This document shows, piece by piece, positions 4,108 through 21,519 of a stretch of 22,876 nt of DNA. How positions within the stretch are numbered: position 1 is the stretch's first letter; the number at the start of each line of letters is the position of its first letter. This DNA comes from a virus. The stretch covers positions 1 to 22,876 of the IMG/VR virus record IMGVR_UViG_3300044815_000038; one strand, written 5' to 3'. Both the position numbers and the translations under genes were made by a program. Below the pieces are notes generated by a model that saw nothing but the letters and a program-made list of their open reading frames with translations, did not search any database and was not told the DNA's origin.

Positions 4108-6438
4108 TTAGGCGGCCGACACGAGCACCGGCGTCGCGGGCGCAACGGCGCGGATATATTCCGACGCCGCCGCGAACGTCCTGGGAAGCGCCAGGCGCGC
4201 GTTCACCGCATCCTGATCAATCCCCATGGTCATCATCGGGAAGGCCGGCGAGCGCGTGTTGAGGCGCACGTCGACCGTGTTCACGTCGGGGAGGACACCC
4301 GAGAGCCAGGTCGAGCCGTCTTCCGCCCCTCGGCCGCTGTTCGCGTCAAAGCCGGTCCCCACTTGCCACGCCGAAAGGCTCCCGTAGGCGGTTCCCTTCC
4401 ACGTCCCGAGACTTGAGCCGGACCCGCCGTTGAGGGCGAAGTCGTACCAGTTGCGATCAATGACGGCGTGGGCCGGATCGGTGTTCACCGTGAAGTCGTG
4501 GCCTAGATACATGCCCGAAAAGATGTTGTTCGTGATGTCGATCACGGCCCCGGCGGAGAGCGGCCAGGTGATCATGTTGATCGCGGCGTGAGCATTGTTG
4601 ACGAAGAGGTTGTTTTTCGCGCGCAACCTGGCGCCAACGCCGCCGCTGTAGAGGTACGACGTCCCGCCGGAATTGTCGGTAACGACGATCGAATTTTCGA
4701 TGTCGATCGTACCGCCGGCCCCACAATCGATCATGCGGGTGAAATGGGAGAGCGCCAGAAGGCCGCGAATTATCAGTGTCGACGCGCCGAAGGCTTCCCA
4801 TGCGCTCGTTTGGCCGGCGAGCTGCGACGATCCGAAGAACGTGAAATTGTTGAGGTTCGTTGTGCCTTGCTCGCCCGACGAATTGGCGGCGATCCCGGAT
4901 TGCCAGCAGTCGTTGACTGTCGCGGTATCGATGAAGCCCGCCGAACAGTGAGCATAGAACCATGAGCTGATCGGCCCACCCGCGTCGGCGCCCGAATAGG
5001 TGTAAACGCTGGCGTCGATCAGGCCGGCGCATCGCGTGATCGTCCCCGACAGGCCCGACACCAGGGCCGAGAACATCACGAATTGGTTGCCGGACGCATC
5101 GCTGAAGTAGTTGCGTGAGTCCTGGCTGTTGATCGAGATCACGTCGAAAGCCTCGCCGCCCGGCCCCATGAGCCAGTTATGCTTGGTCCCCTCGACGCAG
5201 AGGCAACGCCGGACCTCGCCGAAATTATAGAGGCTGATCGAGCCGTTGTTGTTGCCGTTGCGGGTCGCGATAATCCCCTCGACCGAACAGCCGTCGTGAC
5301 CACCGAACGCGAAATCGCGCATCGTCACTTCGTAGACGTGGCCGTCTGTGATCGGGTTACTGTCGGCGTAGGGATGGAAGGTGATTGTCGTCGTCCCGCC
5401 GGCCACGGGCGCGGCGGAATACCAATAGGTCCCGGCCGCCGAGCAGTCGGACTCATTCTGCTTGCGCAAGAGCGACGGTTGATCGTCGACCCACATGCGG
5501 AATTGCGACGTCCCCGACGAGTGCATGTCGTGGGTGACGGCGATTCGATAGGCGTTCGTGATCGTCGGATGCGCGGTGATGTTGGCTTTGACGATGATAT
5601 CCGTGCAGCGGATTTCCCGCGTCGATCCCCCGTAGACGCAGAGGTTCACATAGCTGCGCGCCAGGTTGCCGTTGCGGCTGTTGGCCTCGTAATAGTCGAA
5701 GCCGTCGCGCCATGGGACAGTTGCCGCGATGATCCCGATCGTTACGCCAGCGCCAGAGGCATTCGCGACGAACGCCGCGTGCGCCTCGACGCCAGCGCGG
5801 GTCTTCTTTGGTCCGGACGTTGAGGTTCCCTGACGATAGCCATAGTTGCCGTCCCACGAGTCGTTGCCGTTCTCCGGATCGAGGAAGATTTGCGGCGCGG
5901 CGGCCAGCACGGCGACGCCGTCGAGCGACGTGAACTGGAACCGCTTTTTCGTGCGCGGATGGAACAGATAACCGCCGGACGTCCCCGCCAGCATGGCGGC
6001 GATCGACTGAGCCTCGGCGGCCGACGCGGCGGCGGCGGCGGCCGAGTCCGCGGCGGCTAGCGAGGCCGCCGCCGTGGCTTGCGCGACGATCCCGTCAAGG
6101 GCGGCCGTCGAGGCGAGAGTCGTGATGTAGGTTGCCGTTGCGGGCGACGTGGCGCTCTTTTCATAATAGTCGAATGCGCCATCGGGATTGGTCGAGGGGA
6201 TCGCGAAGAACGCCCCAAGCGGCAAGGCGTGGTCGGCCAGGGCCGCCGCGACGTTGGGATAAATCCGGTTCGCACCGCCGAGCACAATGGCCGTTTCGAG
6301 ATCCCCGATCGCGCCGCCGATCTCGGTAAATAGAGCGCGAATGTCGGACTTGGCGGGGTCGTTGGGGCCGCTGGACGGAACGCCGTCGACGACGAAGTCG
6401 CGATAGGTTTCGTTGGCGTCGGTGATGATATCGCTCAT
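4108..6438 (-). CDS. tailspike / tail fibre protein with right-handed beta-helix
   Basis: A 776-residue receptor-binding protein candidate. Residues 1-100 form an N-terminal virion-attachment-like part: TYRDFVVDGVPSSGPNDPAK and DIRALFTEIGGAI match a common tail fibre start in alphaproteobacterial phages. Residues 119-151 are Ala-rich and probably a trimeric coiled coil. From about residue 185 (IFLDPENGNDSWDG) the sequence has the Asn/Gly/Ser-rich, short-strand pattern of a pectate-lyase-like parallel beta-helix, to about residue 700. Such spikes bind, and often cleave, surface polysaccharide. No catalytic pair can be assigned by eye. The ATG at 6438 has GAGGAAT upstream. It follows the J-like gene, as expected for an adsorption module. 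Confidence 0.8.
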   Translation of the reverse strand: MSDIITDANETYRDFVVDGVPSSGPNDPAKSDIRALFTEIGGAIGDLETAIVLGGANRIYPNVAAALADHALPLGAFFAIPSTNPDGAFDYYEKSATSPATATYITTLASTAALDGIVAQATAAASLAAADSAAAAAASAAEAQSIAAMLAGTSGGYLFHPRTKKRFQFTSLDGVAVLAAAPQIFLDPENGNDSWDGNYGYRQGTSTSGPKKTRAGVEAHAAFVANASGAGVTIGIIAATVPWRDGFDYYEANSRNGNLARSYVNLCVYGGSTREIRCTDIIVKANITAHPTITNAYRIAVTHDMHSSGTSQFRMWVDDQPSLLRKQNESDCSAAGTYWYSAAPVAGGTTTITFHPYADSNPITDGHVYEVTMRDFAFGGHDGCSVEGIIATRNGNNNGSISLYNFGEVRRCLCVEGTKHNWLMGPGGEAFDVISINSQDSRNYFSDASGNQFVMFSALVSGLSGTITRCAGLIDASVYTYSGADAGGPISSWFYAHCSAGFIDTATVNDCWQSGIAANSSGEQGTTNLNNFTFFGSSQLAGQTSAWEAFGASTLIIRGLLALSHFTRMIDCGAGGTIDIENSIVVTDNSGGTSYLYSGGVGARLRAKNNLFVNNAHAAINMITWPLSAGAVIDITNNIFSGMYLGHDFTVNTDPAHAVIDRNWYDFALNGGSGSSLGTWKGTAYGSLSAWQVGTGFDANSGRGAEDGSTWLSGVLPDVNTVDVRLNTRSPAFPMMTMGIDQDAVNARLALPRTFAAASEYIRAVAPATPVLVSAA

Positions 6439-6480: not shown

Positions 6481-8631
6481 TCAGGTGACGACGATGCTTT
6501 GCGACGGGGTCGGCGCGCTTTGATTGCCCGTCGCGCTTTCGCCCGTGGCCCAATAGAACCACGTCCCCGCGCCCGGATGAACATCGGTGTAAAGGAACGG
6601 CTGATTGGCCGGCCCATATAGCGGGCCGCTGATGTCGACCGCCGTCCCGAAGGTGTTCGTCGCGCTGCGCCAGAACCGGCCGGCGGCCCACGCAAGCGAA
6701 TTGCTGGCCGTGGCCTGGAGTCCGACGTTGTGGGTCGGCGAGCCCACATGTGACGTCGCGAGGCCTGTCGGCGCGGCCGGGGCCGGCGTCGTGACTTGGG
6801 TGTTCACGGTGTGCGTCGAGGTCCACAGGCTTTGGCCGGCCGAGCCCAGCGCCGCGACCCGCACGTCGAGCGACACAACCGAGGGGACGAAGCCCGAGGG
6901 GAACGACACGGTCGGCGGCGAGTCGCCGTCGCTGGCCGGGAACCGCGAGGTTTCGTCGCTCCATAGGTCCGTGCCCGTGACCCGCCACGAAACGATGTCG
7001 GAAAGGTCGAGGCGGTTGATATCCTCCAGCGTGATCATGAGGCGCGGGCCGGCCGTGCCGTTGCCACTGTCATCCGAGAACGAGGTGATCGACACCACCA
7101 GCGGGACGGGGACCGTCGCGGGCGTGGCGCTGGCCGGCGCGTCGGGGGCGTTGCCTTCCTCGGTCGCGGCGTCCCACTCGTCGATGTCCTGATCGGCCAG
7201 GACGATATCAAAGTGAACCTGGCGCTTCACCAGGTCGAGCGACGCGCCGACGATCTCTACCACCGTGTCATACATGGACGAGGGGCCGCGCCGGTTCTTG
7301 AGCCGCAAATAGCGTTGCTCCAGCTCGGCCCCGTCGTCCGACAGGTCGATCACGACATATCCTTGATAGGGAGCCTTGATGCGCGCCATCGCCCGCTTGG
7401 CCAGGCGGCGCGTCTGGCCGTTGTTCGTGACCCACGGCCGTTCTTGGCTGAGCGAATTGTCCGGCGCGCCAGCATCGATCGCCGCCTGGTCATACCAGGG
7501 GTCGGCCTCGACCATCGTGTAGCCGAGGTCCGGCGAGTTGAACGAAAGGACCAGGCGGTTAGCCGTCTCGTCCAGGCGGCGGGAGTGATGCCACGCGAAT
7601 TCTAGGATGCGGTCTTCGTCGAGGACGACGGTCGGCTCTTCGTATTTTCCGGCCTTGAGCACGAAAGCGCCGTCGCCGCGCTCGATCATGTAGCCATCAT
7701 AACAGTCGAGGAAATTGGTCCGGATATCCTTGTTGGCGTTGTTCCGCTGATACCAGCCAAAGAGGGTATATTTGGCCTGGTCGCCGCCGGCCTTCAGGGG
7801 GACGCGCTCGTCGCAGACGTCGGCGGCCGTGGTCAGAAAGTCCAGCGTCGGCGCGAACCTGAAATCCCAATCCTGGCCGCGCGCGAACCATTCGTCATGG
7901 ATATGACAGACCACCGCGTTTTCAGACCATTCCCAGGTGTCGGGATCATCGCGCCGCTGCGCGCCACCTGGTGAGAAGCCGAGACTCGAGTCCTTCCGCC
8001 AGTCATAGACCTTCGACCACTTCGCCACCGCCGACAGGGCCGGTTCGGTGTTGGGGAAAACCTTCTGTTGATCTTCTTGTTTCACGGCCGAGCAGATCAG
8101 CGCGATCGTGGCCACGCCGTCGCCGCGATGGCTGGACGTCCACTGGCCTTGGCTAAGCCGGACAACGTCGGCGAAGGCCGTCGCGGGGTTGTCGCCCACC
8201 TGCCAATAGATATGCACTGGCGACAGATCGAAGTTGAAAAGGTTCGCGCCGCTATAGCGGCCGTCCGCGCCGCCCGTCACGCCGTGGGACGTGGGATCGA
8301 CGCGAAGGCCCGAGCCGCTTGAGGCAATCGGCACATAGTCGTCGTTCAGATAGAAACCGATGTAGCTGTCGATCGGGCCGTTCACCACCGCGATCACGTC
8401 GAGGGTATACTTCGGAACCGTCACCCAAAAGATATACGGACCGCTCACCCGGCCTTGGCCATAGGCGTACTGTTGCGGCGGGACGGGTTGCTTGATCGGG
8501 GCCTTCGCCTGTTCCGGCTTGGGCGGCCCACCCGTCAACACCTTGGCGATCAGGCTCAAGACGGCGTTGATCGCCACCGTGATCGCGATCTTCACGGCCG
8601 CCGCAATGAGGAAGGGGATGGCGAAGGGCAT
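6481..8631 (-). CDS. J-like tail tip / host specificity protein
   Basis: A 716-residue protein with a hydrophobic N-terminus (residues 4-33) followed by QPVPPQQYAYGQGRVSGPYIFW (about 48-69). This resembles the Pro-rich RQxVxPRRxxYGxVRVGG start of lambda gpJ-like tail-tip proteins, which form the baseplate hub and initiate receptor contact. The middle (about 200-480) is rich in Trp, Asp and Tyr, typical of tail hub domains. From about residue 510 the sequence turns into beta-sandwich, fibronectin-III-like modules (PAAPTGLATS and following). It starts directly after the stop of the DUF6950-like gene. It is shorter than lambda gpJ, and much of the receptor binding may be delegated to the downstream tailspike. 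Confidence 0.8.
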   Translation of the reverse strand: MPFAIPFLIAAAVKIAITVAINAVLSLIAKVLTGGPPKPEQAKAPIKQPVPPQQYAYGQGRVSGPYIFWVTVPKYTLDVIAVVNGPIDSYIGFYLNDDYVPIASSGSGLRVDPTSHGVTGGADGRYSGANLFNFDLSPVHIYWQVGDNPATAFADVVRLSQGQWTSSHRGDGVATIALICSAVKQEDQQKVFPNTEPALSAVAKWSKVYDWRKDSSLGFSPGGAQRRDDPDTWEWSENAVVCHIHDEWFARGQDWDFRFAPTLDFLTTAADVCDERVPLKAGGDQAKYTLFGWYQRNNANKDIRTNFLDCYDGYMIERGDGAFVLKAGKYEEPTVVLDEDRILEFAWHHSRRLDETANRLVLSFNSPDLGYTMVEADPWYDQAAIDAGAPDNSLSQERPWVTNNGQTRRLAKRAMARIKAPYQGYVVIDLSDDGAELEQRYLRLKNRRGPSSMYDTVVEIVGASLDLVKRQVHFDIVLADQDIDEWDAATEEGNAPDAPASATPATVPVPLVVSITSFSDDSGNGTAGPRLMITLEDINRLDLSDIVSWRVTGTDLWSDETSRFPASDGDSPPTVSFPSGFVPSVVSLDVRVAALGSAGQSLWTSTHTVNTQVTTPAPAAPTGLATSHVGSPTHNVGLQATASNSLAWAAGRFWRSATNTFGTAVDISGPLYGPANQPFLYTDVHPGAGTWFYWATGESATGNQSAPTPSQSIVVT

Positions 8632-9039
8632 TTAGGCGCGCTCTTCCCACGCCGCCAGCGCCGTCGCCTTGAGCCCCCACAATCCGCCGGTGTGTGACAC
8701 GGCCACCCATTGACGGTAGCCGACGCACACCGCGCCGATCAGCTCCCCACGCACCGCGCGGTGTCGCACGATGCCCACCGCGCCTTGCCTCGGCCGTCGC
8801 GTGCGGATCAGATCAATGGACCTCGCCCCGTGCTCCCAAGTCTTGATCAGACCACCGCACGCGGCGACGAAGCCATAGGCCCCGTCTTCGGAGTCGTAGC
8901 GACCGCGCCACTCGGCGGCCGGATCGCGGCCCGTAAGCTCCCGCATCCAATTGGCCGGCCACAGACTGCAATCGCTTTGGCCCCAAACCGGAGTCAGGTC
9001 TTCGGATCGGTCGAGGAAGGCCCTTAGCGCGGGGGATAC
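8632..9039 (-). CDS. DUF6950-like tail protein, start codon non-canonical
   Basis: A protein of about 135 residues with FLDRSEDLTPVWGQSDCSLW, then RGRYDSEDGAYGF and ACGGL, and later VRHRAVRGELIGAVC and WVAVSHTGGLWG. The W-G-x-x-D-C motif is the hallmark of DUF6950-like proteins, related in place and layout to the NlpC/P60-like proteins found before gpJ in tail clusters. The Cys of SDC could be catalytic if it is a peptidase, but the full triad is not certain. No ATG, GTG or TTG is present near the expected start: the best-placed codon is GTA at 9039. The only upstream ATG, at 9189, would add about 50 residues that are a shadow of the upstream gene. It overlaps that gene's end. Confidence 0.7.
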   Translation of the reverse strand, partial: VSPALRAFLDRSEDLTPVWGQSDCSLWPANWMRELTGRDPAAEWRGRYDSEDGAYGFVAACGGLIKTWEHGARSIDLIRTRRPRQGAVGIVRHRAVRGELIGAVCVGYRQWVAVSHTGGLWGLKATALAAWEERA

Positions 9040-11636
9040 AGGCGGGTCGAGCCGGCGTTGTAGCTCGGGACGTAGTCGAACGCCCGATCGGTCGGCGAGA
9101 CGATGCTCTGATCCTTGGGCGTCCAGTAGAGGAGCTGAGCCCGATTTCGGTTCACCAGCGCCGAGGACATTGAGACGGTTAGGCTCCATTGGTGCGATCC
9201 TGTTTCGGCGTCTTGCGTGGCCTCGATCCCGATATCGTCTAGCAGACCATCCCAGGCCCAGAGGATATCGGACGTCGGCCGCCAGTTGCGGTCATAGCGG
9301 ATTGTGCCGATCCGCGCGCGGCAACCCTGCAAGCCGATCATGTCCTGATCGACGAGATTGGCGATGTTCTGATCCAGGCCCGACAGGGTGATATCGATGC
9401 GGCGCGCGTCGCCGTTGAGGAGCCGGTCGATCTCCGGAAGGTTCGTGAGCTGGCCGATCCCCTGATAGATTTCGGGGTCGGGATCGAGATCGTTCGGCCC
9501 CACCCTGATCTTGCCGTTGCCGGCCCAAATCCGGATGACGGGGTCCGTCGCCAGGCGGCAGAAAATCCCCCGGTTGGCGCGGTCGCCCAGCGTCGGCCGG
9601 CCCACCAGCGAGTGCGGCGGCTGGATGATCCCCACCGAACCCGATGCCGAGACGCCCGTGAGCGCCACCACCGCCGAGGGCTTCAGCGTGCCCAGCGCCG
9701 ACGCGGCCGTCACGCCGGCCAGGACGATTCCGCGCGAGACGTGGCCCACCGCGCCCGTGGCGGCGACACCCGTGAGCGCCAGGCTCGCCGAGGGCTTCAG
9801 CGTGCCGAGGAACGCCGCCGCGCTGACGCCGGCCAGGGGCTGCGCTCGGCCGCCCTTCAGTGTGCCCACCGCGCCAGTACCGGCCACGCCCGACAGGGCG
9901 ATCGCCACCGACACGCCGACGAACCCGAGGTCGGCGTCGGCCTCGACGCCCTCCAACGCCTCGCCCGTGCCTGGCGTGACGTCGCCCACGTCGGCGGCGG
10001 CCGACACGCCCGTCAGGGGGACAGAGACCGAAACCGCGAGGTGTCCCACGGCCCCCGTGGCGGCGACGCCGGCCAGGGTCGTCGCGCCGATGTAGCCCAG
10101 CGCGCCGAGGGCGACCGTCGCGGCTACGCCGGTTAGCGGAATGCTGGCGCTGGCCACCACCGAGCCCAGGCCCATCGTGGCGGCGACGCCCGTGAGCGCC
10201 AGACTTGCCGAGGGCTTCAGCGTGCCCAGCGCCGCCGTGGCGGCCACGCCGGTCAGCGCGCCACCACCCGCAAGGCCGAGGCTTCCGAGGGCTCCAGCGC
10301 CAGCCACGCCCGTCAAGGGCACGCTGAAGGAAGGCTTGAGCGTCCCGGTCGCAGAGGTCCCCGCGACGCCCGTCGTCGGGACGCTGAAGGCCGCATGAAG
10401 CGTGCCACCGGCGGCCGTGGCCGCCACGCCGGTCAGGGCGACGCTCGTCCCCGAGGACGGGGCGACGAGGAGCGCGCCGAAACCGCTGACAGTCGTCGTC
10501 GTGGTGAAGCCGGAGCCGGTCGTATAGGCGACCTTGTCGCCAGCGCTCAGAGTGTCGGTATGGGTGTTGTCGGTGAATACGCCCGTCGTGTTGGCCGTGA
10601 CGGTAATCGAGCAATTGCCGGTGACGCCGTTGATCCGCGACGCGACGGTCTGATTCGTGCCCGTGGTGTTCGTCGAGATCGCGACGGCGAAATTCTGGAG
10701 CGTCCCGGCCGTGGGGACGATGATCTGAGCGCCGTTCTCCGTCGTGCCCCTGGTGAGCGTCCCGGCCGGGCTCCAGAAGTTGGTTGCCGCCGTGCCCGCC
10801 ACGCCAGCGGCGGCCGTATAGAGATATCCGCCGTTCGCGGTCGCGCCGACGTATTTGATCGCGCACGATCGGACGAGCGTCGCATTCGAGCCCGCGACGC
10901 CCACGATCGCGACGGCCACCAGGTCGCCCGCGTTGAATGTGTCGGTGTGCGTGGTGTCTTCGAAGAAACCCGTCGTCGAGGCCGGGATCGAGAGCGTGTT
11001 GTTCCCGGTGACGCCGTTGATCCGAATCGAAAGAGAGCTGGCCGAGGTCCGCGTGTTCGTGGGGACTTGGGCCTGCAAATGGCTGAAGGTCCCCGACTCC
11101 ACCATCGGGATTTGACAGACGTTCTCGGTCGACGAGGTGACGTTGGCCGAACCGAAAGACCCGAACCGCGTCGCGTTGACGCCGATCGTCGAGTTTGTGA
11201 ACCACGACAGGTAGTTGATCGAGGCCGAGGCCGGGGTGTCGAGCTGCGCGGTGAGGGCGTTTAGGCTGATGGTTTCGGAGGACGCGCCGAAGGTCACGGC
11301 GTAGCCGAACGTGTCCCCGTCGGCCAAGGTGTCGCTGTTCGTGGTGTCGCTGATAACGCCCGTCGTCCCGGCCGGGATAGTGACGGACAAAGCCCCGGCC
11401 GAGCCGTTGAGGCGGCTCGTGACTGTGACCGCCGTGGTTCGGCTGTTGCCGGCGACGAACACCCGAAGGTTCTTGATCGTCCCGCCGGAGCCGCGAAACT
11501 TGGTTTCGCCGTCGTCCGTGCTGATCTGGAGCGCGCGGATCGAGGACGCGCCCCACGGGGCATAAAGCGTCGTCGCGGTGACGCCAGTGAGCGAACCGCT
11601 AGAGCCGAAGGAATAGAGACCAGCGGTTTGCGTCAC
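9024..11636 (-). CDS. 870-residue tail-tip fusion: three beta modules, 14 short repeats, C-terminal tail domain
   Basis: The GTG start at 11636 has GAGGGG upstream. Residues 1-397 contain three modules of about 130 residues, each with a segment of the form RINGVTGN...TTGxFxDxTHTDTLSAGD ending at Asp108, Asp238 and Asp367, probably carbohydrate-binding-like beta sandwiches. Residues 398-675 are 14 tandem repeats of about 20 residues (consensus SxxLTGVAATxAxGTLKPSx). Residues 676-870 form a tail domain (IYQGIGQLTNL, ITLSGLDQNI, LWAWDGLLDDIGI, FDYVPSYN) resembling the usually separate protein of about 200 residues that precedes the NlpC/P60-like gene in GTA-like tail clusters. The likely role is a tail-tip component that also displays long N-terminal appendages. 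The domain names are inferred from pattern and position. Confidence 0.75.
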   Translation of the reverse strand: MTQTAGLYSFGSSGSLTGVTATTLYAPWGASSIRALQISTDDGETKFRGSGGTIKNLRVFVAGNSRTTAVTVTSRLNGSAGALSVTIPAGTTGVISDTTNSDTLADGDTFGYAVTFGASSETISLNALTAQLDTPASASINYLSWFTNSTIGVNATRFGSFGSANVTSSTENVCQIPMVESGTFSHLQAQVPTNTRTSASSLSIRINGVTGNNTLSIPASTTGFFEDTTHTDTFNAGDLVAVAIVGVAGSNATLVRSCAIKYVGATANGGYLYTAAAGVAGTAATNFWSPAGTLTRGTTENGAQIIVPTAGTLQNFAVAISTNTTGTNQTVASRINGVTGNCSITVTANTTGVFTDNTHTDTLSAGDKVAYTTGSGFTTTTTVSGFGALLVAPSSGTSVALTGVAATAAGGTLHAAFSVPTTGVAGTSATGTLKPSFSVPLTGVAGAGALGSLGLAGGGALTGVAATAALGTLKPSASLALTGVAATMGLGSVVASASIPLTGVAATVALGALGYIGATTLAGVAATGAVGHLAVSVSVPLTGVSAAADVGDVTPGTGEALEGVEADADLGFVGVSVAIALSGVAGTGAVGTLKGGRAQPLAGVSAAAFLGTLKPSASLALTGVAATGAVGHVSRGIVLAGVTAASALGTLKPSAVVALTGVSASGSVGIIQPPHSLVGRPTLGDRANRGIFCRLATDPVIRIWAGNGKIRVGPNDLDPDPEIYQGIGQLTNLPEIDRLLNGDARRIDITLSGLDQNIANLVDQDMIGLQGCRARIGTIRYDRNWRPTSDILWAWDGLLDDIGIEATQDAETGSHQWSLTVSMSSALVNRNRAQLLYWTPKDQSIVSPTDRAFDYVPSYNAGSTRLYPPR
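9612..10445 (-). repeat. 14 tandem repeats of about 60 bp (20 residues) inside the tail-tip gene
   Basis: The repeat units run from residue 398 to 675 of the fusion protein. Twelve units are 20 residues and two are 19. Invariant or near-invariant positions are G-V in the centre (LTGVAAT) and a Gly six residues after Val. Several units end in LGTLKPSA. At DNA level the units are clearly related but diverged, so they are old or under protein-level selection. Similar GVSATG-type repeats occur in other phage structural proteins, but their role is not established. Confidence 0.85.
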
Positions 11637-11639
11637 GTC

Positions 11640-12044
11640 CTACCCCTCGTGAGGGACCGCTTGCGCTCCGTCAACCGCGCCGGCCACCGCCTCGTGAATT
11701 TCGGCCGTCAGGTCCGCGTCGGCGCCCGGAACGCTGATAGTCACCGCGCCAGTCTCGTCCATGCGCCAGGCCGGATCGAAAGCATCGAGCGGGACCAGGT
11801 CGCCCGTGGGATTGCCGTCGCTGTCCAGCACCGGCTTAAGCATCCGCTCGGGAAGAACCGAGATCGCCGCCGCGATGGCGATGTTCTTGGCCTTGTTCTG
11901 CGCCCACACCTGATCGAAACAGGCCTGCGCGTCGGCCTGTTCAACGCCGTCGAGCCAGGCATGGGAACACACCGGCGGATCGGCGTCGAAATCAACGAGC
12001 AGATCGGCCGCGTGCGTGTCGGGTTGCCACCGCCGGAACGCCAT
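11640..12044 (-). CDS. hypothetical tail-region protein
   Basis: A 134-residue acidic protein beginning MAFRRWQPDT, with the ATG 3 bases after the previous stop. It has a helical centre (ADAQACFDQVWAQNKAKNIAIAAAISVL) and a polar C-terminal part rich in Asp, Ala and Val. It starts immediately after one small tail-region gene and ends 3 bases before the fusion protein, so it is probably co-expressed with the tail tip. No domain is recognised; it could be a minor tail protein or a chaperone for the neighbouring fibre-like protein. Confidence 0.6.
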   Translation of the reverse strand: MAFRRWQPDTHAADLLVDFDADPPVCSHAWLDGVEQADAQACFDQVWAQNKAKNIAIAAAISVLPERMLKPVLDSDGNPTGDLVPLDAFDPAWRMDETGAVTISVPGADADLTAEIHEAVAGAVDGAQAVPHEG

Positions 12045-12047
12045 CGG

Positions 12048-12518
12048 TTAGCCGAGACGGATCATGGCGTTCGAGGCGTCGTTCGTCGGCATGGTCAGGG
12101 TAAAGTCCCCGGCCGTGATCGACTGCGCGCTGAAGGTCAGCACGGCGATAGCCAACTTGCCGGTAGAGGTGGCGTTGTAGACGAGGGCGCAGTCGAACGA
12201 GCCCGACGAGGTGAGCGCGGTCCAGGTCACGGACGCCGAGGGCGTCCAAATGCCCGTGGTCCCCGATACCGAGGGGGCATTCGCGTTCGTGAGCGCCTTG
12301 CCGCCTTGGGTGTAGTTGCCCGAGGCCGCCAGCTCCGACGTGGTCGAATAAGCCGACGTCGCCGCGCCGAGCGAACCGCTCGCCAGGAACAGGGCGATGT
12401 TGAAGACGTCTTTCGTGGTCACGGTCCGGACCGCGTTCGCGTCCTGCGCGCCGAGCGCGTGGCTTCCGCACATGAACGCCCGCTTGGCGTCCGAAGGCAT
12501 GGCTTGGGTGTTGGACAA
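12048..12518 (-). CDS. small tail structural protein, beta-rich
   Basis: A 156-residue protein. Its start is read as TTG at 12518, because GGAGG precedes it at 8 bases and the upstream stop lies one base away. The open frame reaches 12557, but that part overlaps the previous gene. The N-terminus MSNTQAMPSDAKRAFMCG is helical. Then follows a Ser/Thr/Gly/Ala-rich beta region with YTQGGKALTN and TGIWTPSASVTW. This low-complexity beta pattern is common in small tail or decoration proteins of alphaproteobacterial phages. The role in the virion is inferred from composition and place. Confidence 0.65.
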   Translation of the reverse strand: MSNTQAMPSDAKRAFMCGSHALGAQDANAVRTVTTKDVFNIALFLASGSLGAATSAYSTTSELAASGNYTQGGKALTNANAPSVSGTTGIWTPSASVTWTALTSSGSFDCALVYNATSTGKLAIAVLTFSAQSITAGDFTLTMPTNDASNAMIRLG

Positions 12519-12519
12519 T

Positions 12520-12798
12520 TCAATTCCCTCCGAAGTCGGCGGCAATGCCTTCAGCAAAAAGGCCGCGTTTGATGTGCATGTTTACCGAGCGGTGAATCAG
12601 CTCGCCGTCGAGCCAGTATTCCACGAACGACACCGTTTCGTCGTCGGTGTCGTGGCCACCCTCAACCTTCGTCACGCCTGGCCGATCGGTATCGACCTGA
12701 CAGAAGACGCCGCCGATCTTGTAGGGCACGCGGTAGGGGACCAGGTCGGTTGCTGGCTTATAGGCGGTCTGGCCGCCGACAATGGCATTGATCAGCAT
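12520..12798 (-). CDS. small hypothetical tail-region protein
   Basis: A 92-residue protein beginning MLINAIVGGQTAYKPATDL. The ATG at 12798 has GAGGAG 7 bases upstream and begins just after the distal-tail-like gene, so it is preferred over the earlier in-frame start at 12870. It contains Asp/Glu-rich strand-forming segments (VEGGHDTDDETVSFVEYWLDG) and looks like a small beta protein. It is probably a minor tail component. No family is recognised. Confidence 0.6.
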   Translation of the reverse strand: MLINAIVGGQTAYKPATDLVPYRVPYKIGGVFCQVDTDRPGVTKVEGGHDTDDETVSFVEYWLDGELIHRSVNMHIKRGLFAEGIAADFGGN

Positions 12799-12826: not shown

Positions 12827-13519
12827 TCACGCGAAAAACGCCTCGATAAAGGGGACGTCGACATAGCCATATTTGTTGAAATTGAGCGCCGTGTTGAAGG
12901 CCTCGGAGTCCGCCAGGCGCATCATGCAACGCGGGTTGTCCCACTCCAGCGCGGTTCCGGCGGCGACGTCGTCGCGCAGCGGCGGACCGATATCGACGGC
13001 GTAACGGTTCCCACTTTGGGACCGAACACGCATGATCCGATACATGCGCCAGCCGACGTCCGGATGGTTGATCGAGAACTCCTCGCCGCCCATGAGCGGC
13101 TTGCCGCCCACCAGGTCGAGCGTGATCTGATAGTCGCGAAGGTCCGCGTCGTTCACGAGGGTCGAGGTGACGCTATCGCCCGAATAGAGGCTGTCGTCGT
13201 TGAACGGCGTCCCGTCCGAGTGTGGGACGAGCGGCGAGGGGTTGGCAGAGGGAACGCGGGTCGCTGGCATACGCGGGACAATGATCGGTGTCGCCCCGCC
13301 GCCCAGGATCATTTGGAGCGCCTGAAAGGCCAGGATCGACGTGTCGTCCTTCAGCGGGATTTGCACCATTTGACACCGCCAGAGGGGGCCGCCGTCGATG
13401 CGGTCGATCTGTTGCAGGCCCGACAGGGATGCGCCGCCGCTGTCCACGCCGCCGGACGGCCACCAGTTGAGGTCGCGCGGGACGAGGACGTTGATCGGCC
13501 AGTTGTCGTAAGTCGTCAT
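12827..13519 (-). CDS. distal-tail-like protein
   Basis: A 230-residue protein directly downstream of the tape measure gene, the usual place of the distal tail protein (Dit) or its gpM/gpL analogues that join tail tube and tip. It has an N-terminal WPINVLVPRDLNWWP, an ordered mixture of strands, RIDGGPLWRCQMVQIPL, a Pro-rich central loop, and MGGEEFSINHPDVGWRMYRI towards the C-terminus. The N-terminal pattern (WP-x-NV-x-x-P, W, then GLQQIDRIDGG) recurs in alphaproteobacterial siphophage proteins at this position. The assignment rests on gene order plus this pattern, not on a catalytic motif. Confidence 0.65.
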   Translation of the reverse strand: MTTYDNWPINVLVPRDLNWWPSGGVDSGGASLSGLQQIDRIDGGPLWRCQMVQIPLKDDTSILAFQALQMILGGGATPIIVPRMPATRVPSANPSPLVPHSDGTPFNDDSLYSGDSVTSTLVNDADLRDYQITLDLVGGKPLMGGEEFSINHPDVGWRMYRIMRVRSQSGNRYAVDIGPPLRDDVAAGTALEWDNPRCMMRLADSEAFNTALNFNKYGYVDVPFIEAFFA

Positions 13520-13525
13520 GTGCCC

Positions 13526-16500
13526 TCACAGATACGGCGGCGGCTGCACCTTGCCCCGCGCAATGCCTTCGTTGACCGCCGACCAGGTGTTTTGCTTGAA
13601 GCCGCTTTTCAGCCCGTTGACCATACCGCGCAGCTCGTCGATCTCGCGCGGGCCGGCCCCGCGCGCGTCGATGTAGACTGAGCCGCCGGAGCCGCCGCCG
13701 CCCATGGCGCTATGAGGGACGATCTGAAGGTTTGAATTGGCGGCATAGATAGGCTCGATCCCCTTCTCGCCCGCGATCCCCCATTGCCCCTTTTTCAGCG
13801 TCCCGCCGCCCGCGAACGCGCCGCCGAACGAGTCGAGGAGATCGCCGATCGGGTCCGTCCCGTTGGCGACGTCGTTTCCGTTGCCGCCGATCCCGAAGAG
13901 TTGCTTGAGGCCGTTGCCGAGCGACTGGCCGATGCCGCCCAGGCCGCCGCTTCCACCACCGCCTAGCAGGTTGCCGATATCGTTGGCCGGCGAGACGAAC
14001 AGCGGGTCGGACCGCGTCCCCGTGGGCTTCTTGCCGGTCCCGATCCCGAACAGTCCCTTGACCACCGAGCCGATGTCGTCGGCGGCCGATTGGGCGAGCG
14101 GCTTGACCAGCGTGTCGGATAGCAGCTTGAGGAAGGCGTTCTTGATGTCCGTCGCCGCGTTGGCGCCCGATTTGCCGATGTCCTCGAACGCCGCCTCAAG
14201 GCTATCGGTGAACGACGAGATCGCCTGATTGAGCTGTTCCTGATTCTGGATTTGCTGCGCCGAGGTCGAGTTGACCAGGTCGCCATATTGCTTTTCCAGG
14301 TCGATCGACGTTTTGATGCGGTCGGCGTTGGCGAAGTCGCCCACCGAGATCGCCTTATCCTCTTGCTCTTGAAGCTGGATCAGCCGTTGAGCCGAGGCGA
14401 TGCGGTCCGCGTCTAGCTGATCCTGAATCTTCTGAAGATCGGCCTGGTGGCTGGAGATCGGCGCGCCGGCTCCGGTCGAGTTGGCCTTGAAGTCGCGGAT
14501 TTGCTGCGCGGTCTGAAGGTTCTGCGCCTTGGTTTGCAGGTCCGCGATCTGTTGCTCGGCGGCATATTGCGCCTTCGCGGCGGCCGTGGCCGTGGCGTGC
14601 GCCACCTCCAACCGGGCGAGCTGGTGTTCGAGCGCGATCATGGTCAGGCGCGCCGCGTCGTTCTCGTTCGCGAGCGCCTTGTTGGTGTCGATATGCTCGA
14701 TGATCGAGTCTTTGAGGGTCTGATATTTATCGTCGACCGCCTGAAGCGCTTCCTCCAGGGGGTTCAAGCCGCCCTTGGCGAATTCGTTCACCGCGATCTG
14801 ATCCTTCGCCACCTCCTGGCCGAACTTGATCGCCTCTTTCGCGAGGCCCTCTTGTTCGAGCTGGCCGATCCGCGCGCGCAGCGAGTCGATCGTTCCGGCA
14901 TAGGCCGAGACGTTCACGCCCGAGGCTTTCGCCGAGGCGGTCAGCTCGTCGATCTTGGCGCGCAGCGCATTGGCTTCCGTCGTGGCCTTGGGAAGCACCT
15001 GCGCGTCGAGGCCCTTGCTCACCGAATCGTTGAGGGAGCGCAGACCGTCCGCGAGCTTCTTGTTCGCCTCCTTGATCTTATCCGCGCCCTTGTCCTTGCC
15101 CATGTTGAACGTGGGCGGAACAAGCGGCGGGGTCTTTTTCTTGACGTCTCCGACGATCTGCACCGACGAGTCGAGCGGATCGGAATCAGGGATCGGCGCG
15201 CCACCCGTTTTCTTGCCTCCCGTGATCAGGCCGAGAAGCCCGGCCAGCACCGCCAGGATCGGCGTGAGCCGCGAGGCGAAGCTGATCGCCTGGTTGATCG
15301 CCTTCTGAACCCCCGCCGGCAGGGCGTCCCAATCCTTGATGAAGCCGTTCAACGCATCGTCGGCCTTACCGATCGCCCAATTTACCCCCTGCATGACGAG
15401 CGCAACTTGTTGCAGGAAATTCGCCAGCTCGCGGATAGCCTCTTGGCCGACCACCTTGAGCAGCGTCGCGGCGAAGTCGGCAAGGTTCGAGGCGGCTTGC
15501 GCAAGCATCGCGCCGAGCGGCCCGGTCATGAGTTTGTCGACGATCTCGCCGAACGACTTGATGATCGATTGAATGGGCGGCCCGAAGGCAACTTGCGCCT
15601 GATCGTACAGGTCTTGGAAGACGGCGATGAACTTGTCGCGGAAGACGTACAGGAACGCCCCCACGGCCGCCAGGACGGCCACCAGCGGCAGGAACGAGGT
15701 TCCCAGGGCCGCCATCCCCGCCTCAAGCACACCGCCGGCCCCGGCGACGCCCTTGATGATCCCGGCGAACCCTTCGAACGCATCCATGAGCACGACGACG
15801 GCCTCAAGCACGGCGCCCACATAGACCAGCAGGGGGCCGAGCACGGCCACCAGCGCGGCGACCACGACGACGGCCTTCAAAACCGCCGGGTCCATGTTCT
15901 GCATGATCCCGACGAGTTTGGTCAGCAACGCGGTCAGCGGCGGCAGGAATTCCAGAACGATCTTGCCGATCGTCTCGGAAAACTCTTTCCATGCCTGGTG
16001 AAGGTCGCCCGTTGGCGAGGCCTCGCGCATGGCCTTCGCCGAGCCGTCGAATTCCTTCTCCAGCTCGGCGAGGATGATCCCTTGCGCCTTGTAGCCCTGG
16101 CCGCTCTTCACGAGCTGCGCGATCTGTTCCTTTTGATGTTGGGTGAACGACACGCCAAGTTTTTGAAGCGCCGTGACGCCCCGGATCGGATCGTTCAAGG
16201 CCTTCCCGACCTTGACCGCCGCGTCCTGCAAATCGCCGCCCATCGCGGCGGCCAGGTTCACAGACGCCTTTTCAGCCCGATCGAAAATCGTCCCTTGGAC
16301 ATTGCCAAAGGTCAGCATCGCGGCCGTGACCTTGCGAAGGATTTCGTCGTCGTCGAACGTCGAGATTTTCGCCAGGCTCTTCGCGGATTCGTCGAGCTGT
16401 TCGGACGTGCGGCCGGACGTGTTGCCCATGGACGTCAAGCGGGCCTGGACCTGGGCGAACGCCTGGTTCGCCTCGGTCGCCTGTTTCGTCGCCTCACGCC

Positions 16501-16687
16501 CGAACTCGATGATCGGGAGCGAGATCGCGATCGACATAGTCTCGCCGAGTTTCTTGACGTCGGACGCGACCGATCGGAACCGCGTCGCGAACTTCTCGAC
16601 GACGTCGCCCGCCTTGCCCATGTCGTCGGCGAACTGGCCGACAGAGGCGGAGAGGTCCGCGCGCAGCGCGCCAACAACGGCCGACAT
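13526..16687 (-). CDS. tail tape measure protein
   Basis: A 1053-residue protein, the longest gene in the window, that sets tail length and is ejected during infection. Coiled-coil helices run through residues 1-250, with NDPIRGVTALQKLGVSFTQ (165-183) and the AELEKEFDGSAKAM segment (207-220), both typical of phage tape measure proteins. Hydrophobic stretches lie at about 268-303 and 331-349 and may cross the host membrane. A long heptad-rich middle follows. The C-terminus has FAGGGTLKKGQWGIAGEKG, a common tape measure ending. By the usual relation of about 0.15 nm per residue the tail would be about 150-160 nm. AAGGA lies upstream of the ATG. Confidence 0.92.
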   Translation of the reverse strand: MSAVVGALRADLSASVGQFADDMGKAGDVVEKFATRFRSVASDVKKLGETMSIAISLPIIEFGREATKQATEANQAFAQVQARLTSMGNTSGRTSEQLDESAKSLAKISTFDDDEILRKVTAAMLTFGNVQGTIFDRAEKASVNLAAAMGGDLQDAAVKVGKALNDPIRGVTALQKLGVSFTQHQKEQIAQLVKSGQGYKAQGIILAELEKEFDGSAKAMREASPTGDLHQAWKEFSETIGKIVLEFLPPLTALLTKLVGIMQNMDPAVLKAVVVVAALVAVLGPLLVYVGAVLEAVVVLMDAFEGFAGIIKGVAGAGGVLEAGMAALGTSFLPLVAVLAAVGAFLYVFRDKFIAVFQDLYDQAQVAFGPPIQSIIKSFGEIVDKLMTGPLGAMLAQAASNLADFAATLLKVVGQEAIRELANFLQQVALVMQGVNWAIGKADDALNGFIKDWDALPAGVQKAINQAISFASRLTPILAVLAGLLGLITGGKKTGGAPIPDSDPLDSSVQIVGDVKKKTPPLVPPTFNMGKDKGADKIKEANKKLADGLRSLNDSVSKGLDAQVLPKATTEANALRAKIDELTASAKASGVNVSAYAGTIDSLRARIGQLEQEGLAKEAIKFGQEVAKDQIAVNEFAKGGLNPLEEALQAVDDKYQTLKDSIIEHIDTNKALANENDAARLTMIALEHQLARLEVAHATATAAAKAQYAAEQQIADLQTKAQNLQTAQQIRDFKANSTGAGAPISSHQADLQKIQDQLDADRIASAQRLIQLQEQEDKAISVGDFANADRIKTSIDLEKQYGDLVNSTSAQQIQNQEQLNQAISSFTDSLEAAFEDIGKSGANAATDIKNAFLKLLSDTLVKPLAQSAADDIGSVVKGLFGIGTGKKPTGTRSDPLFVSPANDIGNLLGGGGSGGLGGIGQSLGNGLKQLFGIGGNGNDVANGTDPIGDLLDSFGGAFAGGGTLKKGQWGIAGEKGIEPIYAANSNLQIVPHSAMGGGGSGGSVYIDARGAGPREIDELRGMVNGLKSGFKQNTWSAVNEGIARGKVQPPPYL

Positions 16688-19335: not shown

Positions 19336-20063
19336 GACGTTCTGAACACCCCCCGCACGCGCAGATTTTCGAGGATCGAGGCATAGCCAGGGACCTCGAC
19401 CGCCTGGCCGCCCGTGATGATCATTTCGGGGTTGGCGTAGTAGTGGCCGAGCCGCGCCTTGGCGTACTGGCGGATCAGCGCCGGAACGTCCGATCCATCG
19501 TCGCCGTAGCCGCATCGATAGCGGATCACGACACTCCCGCCCTCGCGGCGCACGGCCGTCGGCCAGTTGGCGTTGTAGGGCGGCGCGACATAGGCGACGA
19601 CGCCCTCGGTCCCGACGCGGAACCCGTCGCCAGGCGGTGAGCTGGCCACGTCTGTCAACTGCTGGCGCACGCCGTCGTTATCCAGGTAGGACACGGACAA
19701 GACCGCCTGGAGCGGCGGAAGGGGGAGCGCGATCGGCGCGCGGCCGGGGAACGTCATCATCGACAATTCCCAGGTTTGGGTGATCAGGGCCCGGCCGAGC
19801 CACGCCTCGAACCCGTCGATCTCGCCGTTCGCCGCCGCGACGGCGTCCATAATCATTTCATCGTCCGTCCGCGACGGCGGGCTCGTCCCGAAATCCGGGT
19901 CGAGGCGGAGCTGTTGATAGGCCTGGCTCAAGGTCAAAAGCGGATTGATCGGGGCCTCGACCTGGCGGAGCTGCATAAGCGGCGGCCGGGCCGGCGCCCG
20001 GCCGTCGTCCGGCCACCGCATCGGATAGAAGTAGAACGGACCGAGGAGAGAAATCGAAGTCAT
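19332..20063 (-). CDS. head-tail connector, phiE125 gp8 / HK97 gp6-like
   Basis: A 243-residue protein starting at ATG 20063, overlapping the glycosyltransferase stop by ATGA. It holds an N-terminal VEAPINPLLTLSQAYQQLRLD segment, the helix DEMIMDAVAAANGEIDGFEAWLGRALITQTWEL, then LPLPPLQAVLSVSYLDNDGVRQQL, and a C-terminal helix ALIRQYAKARLGHYYANPE. The E-x-x-x-G-R-x-L-x-x-Q-T-W and PPLQxVxSVxYxD motifs are typical of the phiE125 gp8 family of connectors. An N-terminal extension of about 35 residues precedes the conserved part. It is the first virion gene after the modification cassette. Confidence 0.88.
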   Translation of the reverse strand: MTSISLLGPFYFYPMRWPDDGRAPARPPLMQLRQVEAPINPLLTLSQAYQQLRLDPDFGTSPPSRTDDEMIMDAVAAANGEIDGFEAWLGRALITQTWELSMMTFPGRAPIALPLPPLQAVLSVSYLDNDGVRQQLTDVASSPPGDGFRVGTEGVVAYVAPPYNANWPTAVRREGGSVVIRYRCGYGDDGSDVPALIRQYAKARLGHYYANPEMIITGGQAVEVPGYASILENLRVRGVFRTS

Positions 20064-20794
20064 CGCCAGTTGTCCCGCACCCATTCAAGCCGTTGCGCCT
20101 GATCGTCCCACGGATCGGTTTCGCCGTGAAAGAACACGATTCTAGCGTTGGCCGGGAGCGCCCGAGCGTAGTCACCACCGGTCGGCCTGATGTCGTTGCG
20201 GTAGCTGAAGACGCCGCTCGCGGGGCCGAACCTGGCCTGATGGGGGCCGAGGCGGTGACTAATCCAGCCCTGGTCCGAACCCCATTGCCGGCTTTTCTGC
20301 GCGGCGCGGACGCTTCCCAGCGGGTCGGCTTTGAACTCGTCCCACAGAAAGGCGTGTTCCCCCGCCGTGTGCAGGATCATGCCGCCGTTGTAATAGGTCG
20401 TCGGGTTCGTATCGCCCCACAAGACAATGGGTTCGGGCCGATCGAACACCGGCTCAAGGTTGCCGAGGATCACGACGTCAAGGTCGAGGCTCATGATCCG
20501 GTTGCCGATCGCGGCCCCCGTTTGCGCGTCGAATTGCTTCAGACGGCGATAGCAGGCCGGATTGATCCGGCCGCCGATGTCGTGAGGGCTCTTCATGGCC
20601 GCGAAATCGTCCCACAGGGGGAGGACGCGATCCATTTCCGTGATCCCGGCCGGATCGTCGGTGATACAGGTCAGCCGGAGCGGCCCGGCGTAGTGGCGGC
20701 GAACCATCCGGCCGAACACGTTGACAGAATCCGCGGTGAATTGGCTCCTGTATCCCGGCGCGGCTTTCCACTTCCAACAGACCACGTCGATCAT
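20060..20794 (-). CDS. GT-A-like glycosyltransferase (GT8-like)
   Basis: A 244-residue protein starting at ATG 20794, overlapping the previous stop by ATGA. It contains SLDLDVVILGNLEP with the DLD metal-binding motif (104-106), YYNGGMIL (134-141), QWGSDQGWISH and the C-terminal FFHGETDPWD. The DxD, the N-G-G-hydrophobic motif and the late His of FHG are the features of GT8-like retaining glycosyltransferases. The donor and acceptor are unknown. Four bases of overlap with the connector gene couple its translation to virion assembly genes. Confidence 0.8.
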   Translation of the reverse strand: MIDVVCWKWKAAPGYRSQFTADSVNVFGRMVRRHYAGPLRLTCITDDPAGITEMDRVLPLWDDFAAMKSPHDIGGRINPACYRRLKQFDAQTGAAIGNRIMSLDLDVVILGNLEPVFDRPEPIVLWGDTNPTTYYNGGMILHTAGEHAFLWDEFKADPLGSVRAAQKSRQWGSDQGWISHRLGPHQARFGPASGVFSYRNDIRPTGGDYARALPANARIVFFHGETDPWDDQAQRLEWVRDNWR

Positions 20795-21519
20795 AGGACG
20801 CGCTCCCACTTCGTGAGGCCATGGCGCGGCGTCGGGTCGAGTTTGACCAGGCGCTTCATGGCGTCGCGCTTTTCGGTGTTTTCGTTGCCCTTGCGCTGCA
20901 ATGTCGTCGTCGAGGCGTCGGCGATCACTTCGCGCGGATAGCGGATCAGCGGCTCTTTCAGCTCGACGATTCTCGCCGCCGCGCCGACGCGGCCCTTGAA
21001 CATGCCGTCTGTCCCATAGATGCCCCGGAACCGCTCGTCATAGCCGCCGGCCGCCTTGAAGGTCGCCTTGGTCATCGCGTAGCTGTTGGGGTGCGCGTGG
21101 TAGCGCGTGCGCTCCGGCATGGACAGGCGCGCGGGAATATAGGCGCACCGGGTGTCTAGCTTGGACTTTAGCAAGTGCTCCCACAGCTCCGGCGACGGGA
21201 CATGGTCCATGTCAGTCATGAGACACCAGCCGCCGGTTTCGGCTTGCATGACGGCCAGGTTGCGACAGGCGTCTTGATTCCAGGGAATGTCCTCGTCCAT
21301 GCGCCACGCGCGCAGCTTGGACGGCAACAACTCCATTCCACGGCTACAGCACCACTCCGCAACGGCCTGCGCTGCTGGCCAACGTGGGGAACCGTCATCG
21401 ACCACGTGAAGCGTGATCAGATCACGCCAACGGGGGTCGAGCATCGAAAGCCGATCGAACTGTTCATGCAGCATCATCGGGTTGTCGTAATACGCCAGGC
21501 ACAACGTGAACCTATTCAA
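20791..21519 (-). CDS. GT2-family glycosyltransferase
   Basis: A 242-residue inverting GT-A glycosyltransferase. The start is read as TTG 21519, which overlaps the previous TGA and has GAGGAG 8 bases upstream; a longer frame to 21687 is a shadow. Motifs: VVDDGS (39-44), NQDACRNLAV (81-90) where family members have the G-A-R-N-x-G loop, TDMDHV with DMD (103-105) for metal and nucleotide-sugar binding, and GGYDERFRGIYGTDG near the acceptor site. It should transfer one sugar from a nucleotide sugar; neither substrate can be read from sequence. It is shorter than most GT2 proteins and lacks membrane segments. Confidence 0.85.
   Translation of the reverse strand: MNRFTLCLAYYDNPMMLHEQFDRLSMLDPRWRDLITLHVVDDGSPRWPAAQAVAEWCCSRGMELLPSKLRAWRMDEDIPWNQDACRNLAVMQAETGGWCLMTDMDHVPSPELWEHLLKSKLDTRCAYIPARLSMPERTRYHAHPNSYAMTKATFKAAGGYDERFRGIYGTDGMFKGRVGAAARIVELKEPLIRYPREVIADASTTTLQRKGNENTEKRDAMKRLVKLDPTPRHGLTKWERVL

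Follow-up and report, generated by a model that had tools for sequence, protein, structure and literature searches.

The window analysed here is the whole of a 22,876-bp linear IMG/VR virus fragment (IMGVR_UViG_3300044815_000038), and by its gene content the minus strand encodes a lambda-type siphophage tail operon. On that strand the head-tail joining genes and the tail tube are followed by the tape measure protein (13526..16687; PF06791 8.6e-9, phrog_27166 1.5e-39), the distal tail protein (Dit, or gpM-like; 12827..13519; phrog_12948 5.6e-45, phrog_1302 distal tail protein), a long fusion ORF, a DUF6950 gene that takes the place of gpK (8632..9189; PF22262 2.3e-16) and a gpJ-like central hub/fibre protein (6481..8631; phrog_5616 9.5e-93, phrog_31 central tail fiber J 9.5e-9). 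Directly after J lies a large separate fibre/spike candidate (4108..6438, minus strand), which is assigned from its position and from a weak tblastn match to an Ochrobactrum phage tail spike (3e-4). Our searches found no close relatives of this phage, the relatives of its J being at most about 31-33% identical. Upstream of the tail operon there is also a glycosyltransferase-like gene (20060-20809; phrog_1962, 2.3e-17). The DUF6950 ORF has no ATG, GTG or TTG near where its homologues start, and its sole start codon lies 165 bp within the L coding region. Starting there would give an overlap with L of about 55 codons and a non-homologous N-terminus, and a non-standard start is possibly used.

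Organization of the fusion ORF

The fusion ORF (9024..11636, minus strand; GTG start at 11636, stop at 9024) encodes 870 aa, made up of three beta modules, a stalk of fourteen repeats and a gpL-like hub domain. Its GTG start is preceded by a strong Shine-Dalgarno site (-8.1 kcal/mol), and GC3 stays between 0.76 and 0.95 throughout.

The modules are each about 90 residues long at a spacing of ~130, and are found on the minus strand at residues 45-134 (module 1; 11235..11504), 171-262 (module 2; 10851..11126) and 304-395 (module 3; 10452..10727). A sequence-only reading of this DNA had described them as three repeats with a near-identical core. That they are three related modules holds, with pairwise identities of 41-46% over 67-73 aa (40.6% between modules 1 and 2, 41.1% between 1 and 3, 46% between 2 and 3). 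The near-identical core was overstated, since the RINGVTGN...AGD core has its RINGVTGN exactly only in modules 2 and 3 while module 1 has RLNGSAGA. AlphaFold2 (AF2) predicts beta strands in module 1, with a pLDDT of about 60. Module 2 matches a 759-aa ORF of another viral contig (IMGVR_UViG_3300050821_002255, here L003; 3e-20) and the protein UTC29890 of Brevundimonas phage Bajun (2e-7 to 1e-5). Both are tail-region genes with homologous tandem beta modules, but they have neither the repeat stalk nor the hub fusion. UTC29890 (L004:7872-10514) is an 880-aa hypothetical protein in which the window's beta module is repeated in tandem, and its gene has tail genes on one side and a baseplate spike gene on the other.

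The repeats cover residues 401-678 (9603..10436, minus strand; consensus LTGVAATAALGTLKPSASVA). Counting confirmed the fourteen tandem LTGVAAT-type units proposed earlier, of which thirteen have 20 residues and the other 18. They are of the form LTGVAATxALGTLKPSASxA and start at residues 401, 421 ... 621, 639 and 659. Self-identity at a lag of 20 is 0.40, whereas 2000 shuffles gave 0.13 on average and never more than 0.20. The units are on average 44% identical in amino acids and 54% in nucleotides, and Tandem Repeats Finder reported no DNA tandem array over them, thus the regularity is kept at the protein level. The stalk is rich in Ser/Thr. In line with the earlier expectation of regular beta structure rather than disorder, AF2 predicts for the repeats a beta structure with a 20-residue period at moderate confidence (mean pLDDT 64.7, best blocks 79). 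The model of the full-length protein is poor (pLDDT 47.5). Structure predictions were confined to sequences from the window and the fetched loci. Comparison of the repeat model to PDB structures gave only insignificant matches (E of at least 0.58), and PDB sequence searches found no relatives. Pfam and PHROG searches with the repeats and modules returned nothing significant, and no sugar-binding or adhesin family was recognized in the three modules. In tblastn searches with the repeats, low-complexity filtering probably masks them.

The C-terminal domain (residues 680-870; 9027..9599, minus strand) matches PHROG 2048, annotated 'tail protein', at 6.6e-26 over residues 687-858. The domain also matches our L HMM at 5e-72, but the HMM was built with the fusion sequence included. 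Foldseek places the predicted domain with T5 pb3 (7zqp_b, probability 1.00, E 2.7e-3), the JBD30 hub (8rk3_O, 1.00) and 9cuy_X (0.99), these high probabilities going with E-values of just 1e-3 to 1e-1, and its matches in BFVD include many stand-alone phage proteins of ~200 aa. As modelled, the domain has the tail-tube-like beta-sandwich fold of phage hubs (the hub, or HDI, domain), and its identity is established at the level of sequence. The C-terminal domain of lambda gpL carries a [4Fe-4S] cluster on four cysteines (PMC10721106). No such domain is present here, as the hub domain has two cysteines in total (IFCRL, LQGCRAR) and none near the C-terminus. Given that gpL homologues without the cluster are on record (PMC13243795), we file the domain as gpL-like rather than as gpL proper.

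L in related phages and the Dit-L slot

The order Dit - L - K-type - J is present in the window, but a 3.2-kb insert interrupts it between Dit and L, a distance that is usually near zero in relatives. The uninterrupted order Dit-L-DUF6950-J is found in phiLM21, RHph_N28_2, CRP-831, CRP-406, phiPSA1 and ctGfd272, and L lies between Dit and the DUF6950 gene wherever both were seen. In all of the roughly 110 loci examined, a number that is partly redundant because the sets overlap in part, the gpL homologue stands alone at 160-245 aa and none carries the repeats. These loci comprise the six phages just named and RHph_TM3_3_3, 14 viral contigs found via J (21 loci together with the named phages), 11 Rhizobiales prophages, all matches from a scan of 385 genomes of the class, and 69 further viral contigs (160-236 aa). 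The domain is thus normally its own gene, as had been proposed from the sequence, and the repeat-L fusion was seen in one contig only. Open frames of 382-393 aa at two loci (L174 and L177) looked like longer L proteins and were rejected as fusions, as their translation indicates that the upstream Dit region is being read out of frame. Other longer frames in the class scan were likewise upstream read-through.

In another phage, whose J is related, Dit and L have between them a separate 247-aa tail-fibre-like gene (L253:6849-7592; phrog_6320, 1.9e-5). This is a fibre-type gene inserted independently in the same position, and the Dit-L junction is thus used as an insertion slot elsewhere too.

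The cassette

The insert in the window is a widespread, apparently undescribed phage cassette whose three genes are one of ~64 aa, one of phrog_644 and one of GVxATG repeats. To the sequence-only reading we can add that the stalk is, by homology, the third gene of this cassette, and that the other two lie just upstream. The homologue of the ~64-aa gene (12520..12798, minus strand) matches 67 ORFs by phmmer (best 1e-15) over its C-terminal half; its likely start is ATG 12798 (Shine-Dalgarno -8.1 kcal/mol), although the ORF reaches 12870. The phrog_644 gene (12048..12518, minus strand; 1.7e-8, relatives up to 65-77% identical) has a TTG at 12518 that fits the M(A/S)NTQAM start of its relatives, in an ORF reaching 12557. 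Between it and the fusion gene is a 134-aa ORF (11640..12044, minus strand) to which no function is assigned. This ORF has no relatives in phage records or the fetched loci and is absent from other cassettes.

A search with a DNA pattern of three GVxA units at 60-base spacing matched at least 120 viral contigs. Among the matches listed, the repeat proteins have the form ALTGVxATGxVGTV, stand alone and are roughly 115-830 aa long. Counting, among these same matches, the 71 repeat genes with at least 800 bp of upstream sequence, a phrog_644 homologue lies within 1.5 kb upstream in 70 and a homologue of the 64-aa gene is also upstream in 57. Examples of the complete trio among the matches listed (L026-L145) are L101:5136-9937, L083:7453-11327 and L112:1850-5740, and across phages the phrog_644 and 64-aa genes occur in varied genomic settings. 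Literature searches on the repeat motif and on phrog_644 found no paper.

From the occurrence of both genes upstream of repeat genes elsewhere, the window insert is this trio plus the 134-aa ORF, with the end of the repeat gene replaced by L. If the cassette is defined by at least four ~20-aa LTGVxATGxVG units with phrog_644 and ~64-aa genes just upstream, the window has 14 units and both genes, with the 134-aa ORF between. The usual stand-alone ends of the repeat gene are both replaced: three beta modules stand in for the N-terminal MFGxSAF or WGxGxWG start, and the hub domain for the W..IDDSQTANW end. The window gene also differs from the other GVxATG-repeat genes of environmental phages in sitting in a siphophage tail-tip operon. 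These ends do not define the whole set, since some other members differ as well, and we thus file the window protein as a variant. In one such member (L055) the N-terminus is a tail-fibre domain (phrog_693, 1.7e-17), and four more (L045, L178, L182, L184) have other N- or C-terminal flanks.

The junction and alternative explanations

In the window the last cassette gene runs in frame into gpL. The join is at a domain boundary, with a stalk-hub linker of about 10 residues. Neither the W..IDDSQTANW cap, the usual C-terminus of the repeat proteins, nor the VPxxVIExxR stretch with which most L proteins begin is present at the junction, though a relative (L008) also has a short L N-terminus. With both missing, the loss of one stop between two intact genes would not yield the sequence of the window. 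We weighed such a stop-loss artefact and judged it unlikely on these grounds. The wider possibility that a sequencing error or a chimeric join merged two ordinary neighbours draws on the fact that every other L homologue is a separate gene and that our source is one metagenomic contig. That homologues would always be separate, with a stop or assembly error at this locus, had been named in advance as a finding that would refute the reading. The first part turned out to be true, but there is no sign of the second: the neighbouring genes are the expected ones (Dit on the upstream side, DUF6950 and J on the downstream side) and GC3 is even over the junction. We consider an artefact improbable, and the fusion and the cassette are established in the window as sequenced.

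A real fusion could still deliver two products, with a ~21-kDa L made from an internal start or by proteolysis at the short linker, and a stalk protein that acts separately as in other phages. The junction has a single start codon, GTG V678, which sits where a stand-alone L would begin but has no Shine-Dalgarno pairing (+1.2 kcal/mol) in comparison to the -8.1 kcal/mol of the full-length GTG. GTG V657, in the last repeats, has fair upstream pairing (-6.3 kcal/mol). Other internal GTG and TTG codons score like it, so that this score is not specific, and we think it rather unlikely that two products are made. We give about as little weight to a third possibility, that the extension is a spacer or an assembly aid (capping L until Dit docks, for example, or thickening the tip) with no part in host binding. 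The low-complexity Ala/Gly/Val/Thr repeats and the failure of the modules to match any known binding family would suit a spacer, and the phage has other genes for host contact (J and the 4108-6438 gene). However, repeat arrays elsewhere are beside or inside fibre genes, and other phages have the modules in proteins of their tail regions. The leading hypothesis is a fusion protein with a beta-repeat stalk and terminal modules, the stalk probably being attached to the tail tip as an aid to host contact.

Proposed architecture and comparison with known systems

Our full explanation, to which we give a probability of roughly 60%, is that the cassette was taken up between Dit and L and its repeat gene fused to L, giving hub stalks anchored by their C-termini. 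A lambda-type tail operon (TMP - Dit - L - K - J) would have acquired the cassette in the Dit-L slot, and the repeat gene would then have become joined in frame to L. In lambda, the gpL HDI domain and gpJ form a three-fold ring beneath the gpM/Dit hexamer (PMC10721106), and in T1 the counterpart of gpL, gp36, has an N-terminal helix that extends as far up as Dit (PMC11945409). By analogy, three copies of the C-terminal domain would sit in a ring under the Dit hexamer, and in each a predicted fourteen-repeat beta stalk would lead N-terminally to three beta-sandwich-like modules. Provided that L is used uncleaved, the tube is very unlikely to have room for the 675 residues of each copy, which would instead point outward. 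The result would be three extra appendages, one on each of three sides of the tail hub, C-terminus in and N-terminus out, with the stalk perhaps a 20-residue beta-solenoid and the appendages possibly acting in receptor binding. The neighbouring genes and the architecture point to a role in host contact, most likely the addition of weak contacts to the surface (glycan or envelope) beside those of J and the spike. The earlier proposal that such fibres would make a separate fibre gene unnecessary is not supported; with a fibre/spike candidate directly after J, the stalk is no substitute for a fibre gene.

Hub proteins of the gpL type are known, and what is new here is one bearing an appendage. 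The window protein belongs by profile and fold to the same family as lambda gpL, T1 gp36 and RcGTA gp13 (the PHROG 2048 hub HDI), and shares with them the slot between Dit and the K-type gene, before J. It differs from them in its 675-residue N-terminal extension and in having neither the usual N-terminal helix stretch nor the four-cysteine iron-sulfur domain. Phage hubs are reported to vary by translational fusion (PMC13243795).

Evolved Dit proteins and side-fibre attachments in siphophages are cases in which adhesion parts were added to a tail-tip ring protein. The window protein is similar in this respect, but the addition is at the N-terminus of a gpL-type protein and gives a stalk anchored by its C-terminus. 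Should the hub display the stalk, then a gpL-type ring subunit can accept 675 added residues at its N-terminus, and the appendage is held in the opposite direction to ordinary tail fibres.

The trio of phrog_644, 64-aa and GVxATG-repeat genes is a more general lead than the fusion itself. At least one phage now connects a very common but apparently undescribed repeat protein and its companions with the tail tip, and this link gives a testable handle on the function of the trio. More tentatively, the trio could be a widespread plug-in adhesion module with exchangeable stalk ends, wired here covalently to the hub with reversed polarity, giving every virion three stalks on its hub. The number of consecutive repeats in the GVxATG family varies from 4 to 25 (L112:2999-4795; L119:11214-12593; L087:1706-2599), and given this wide spread across phages the length of the stalk may evolve quickly.
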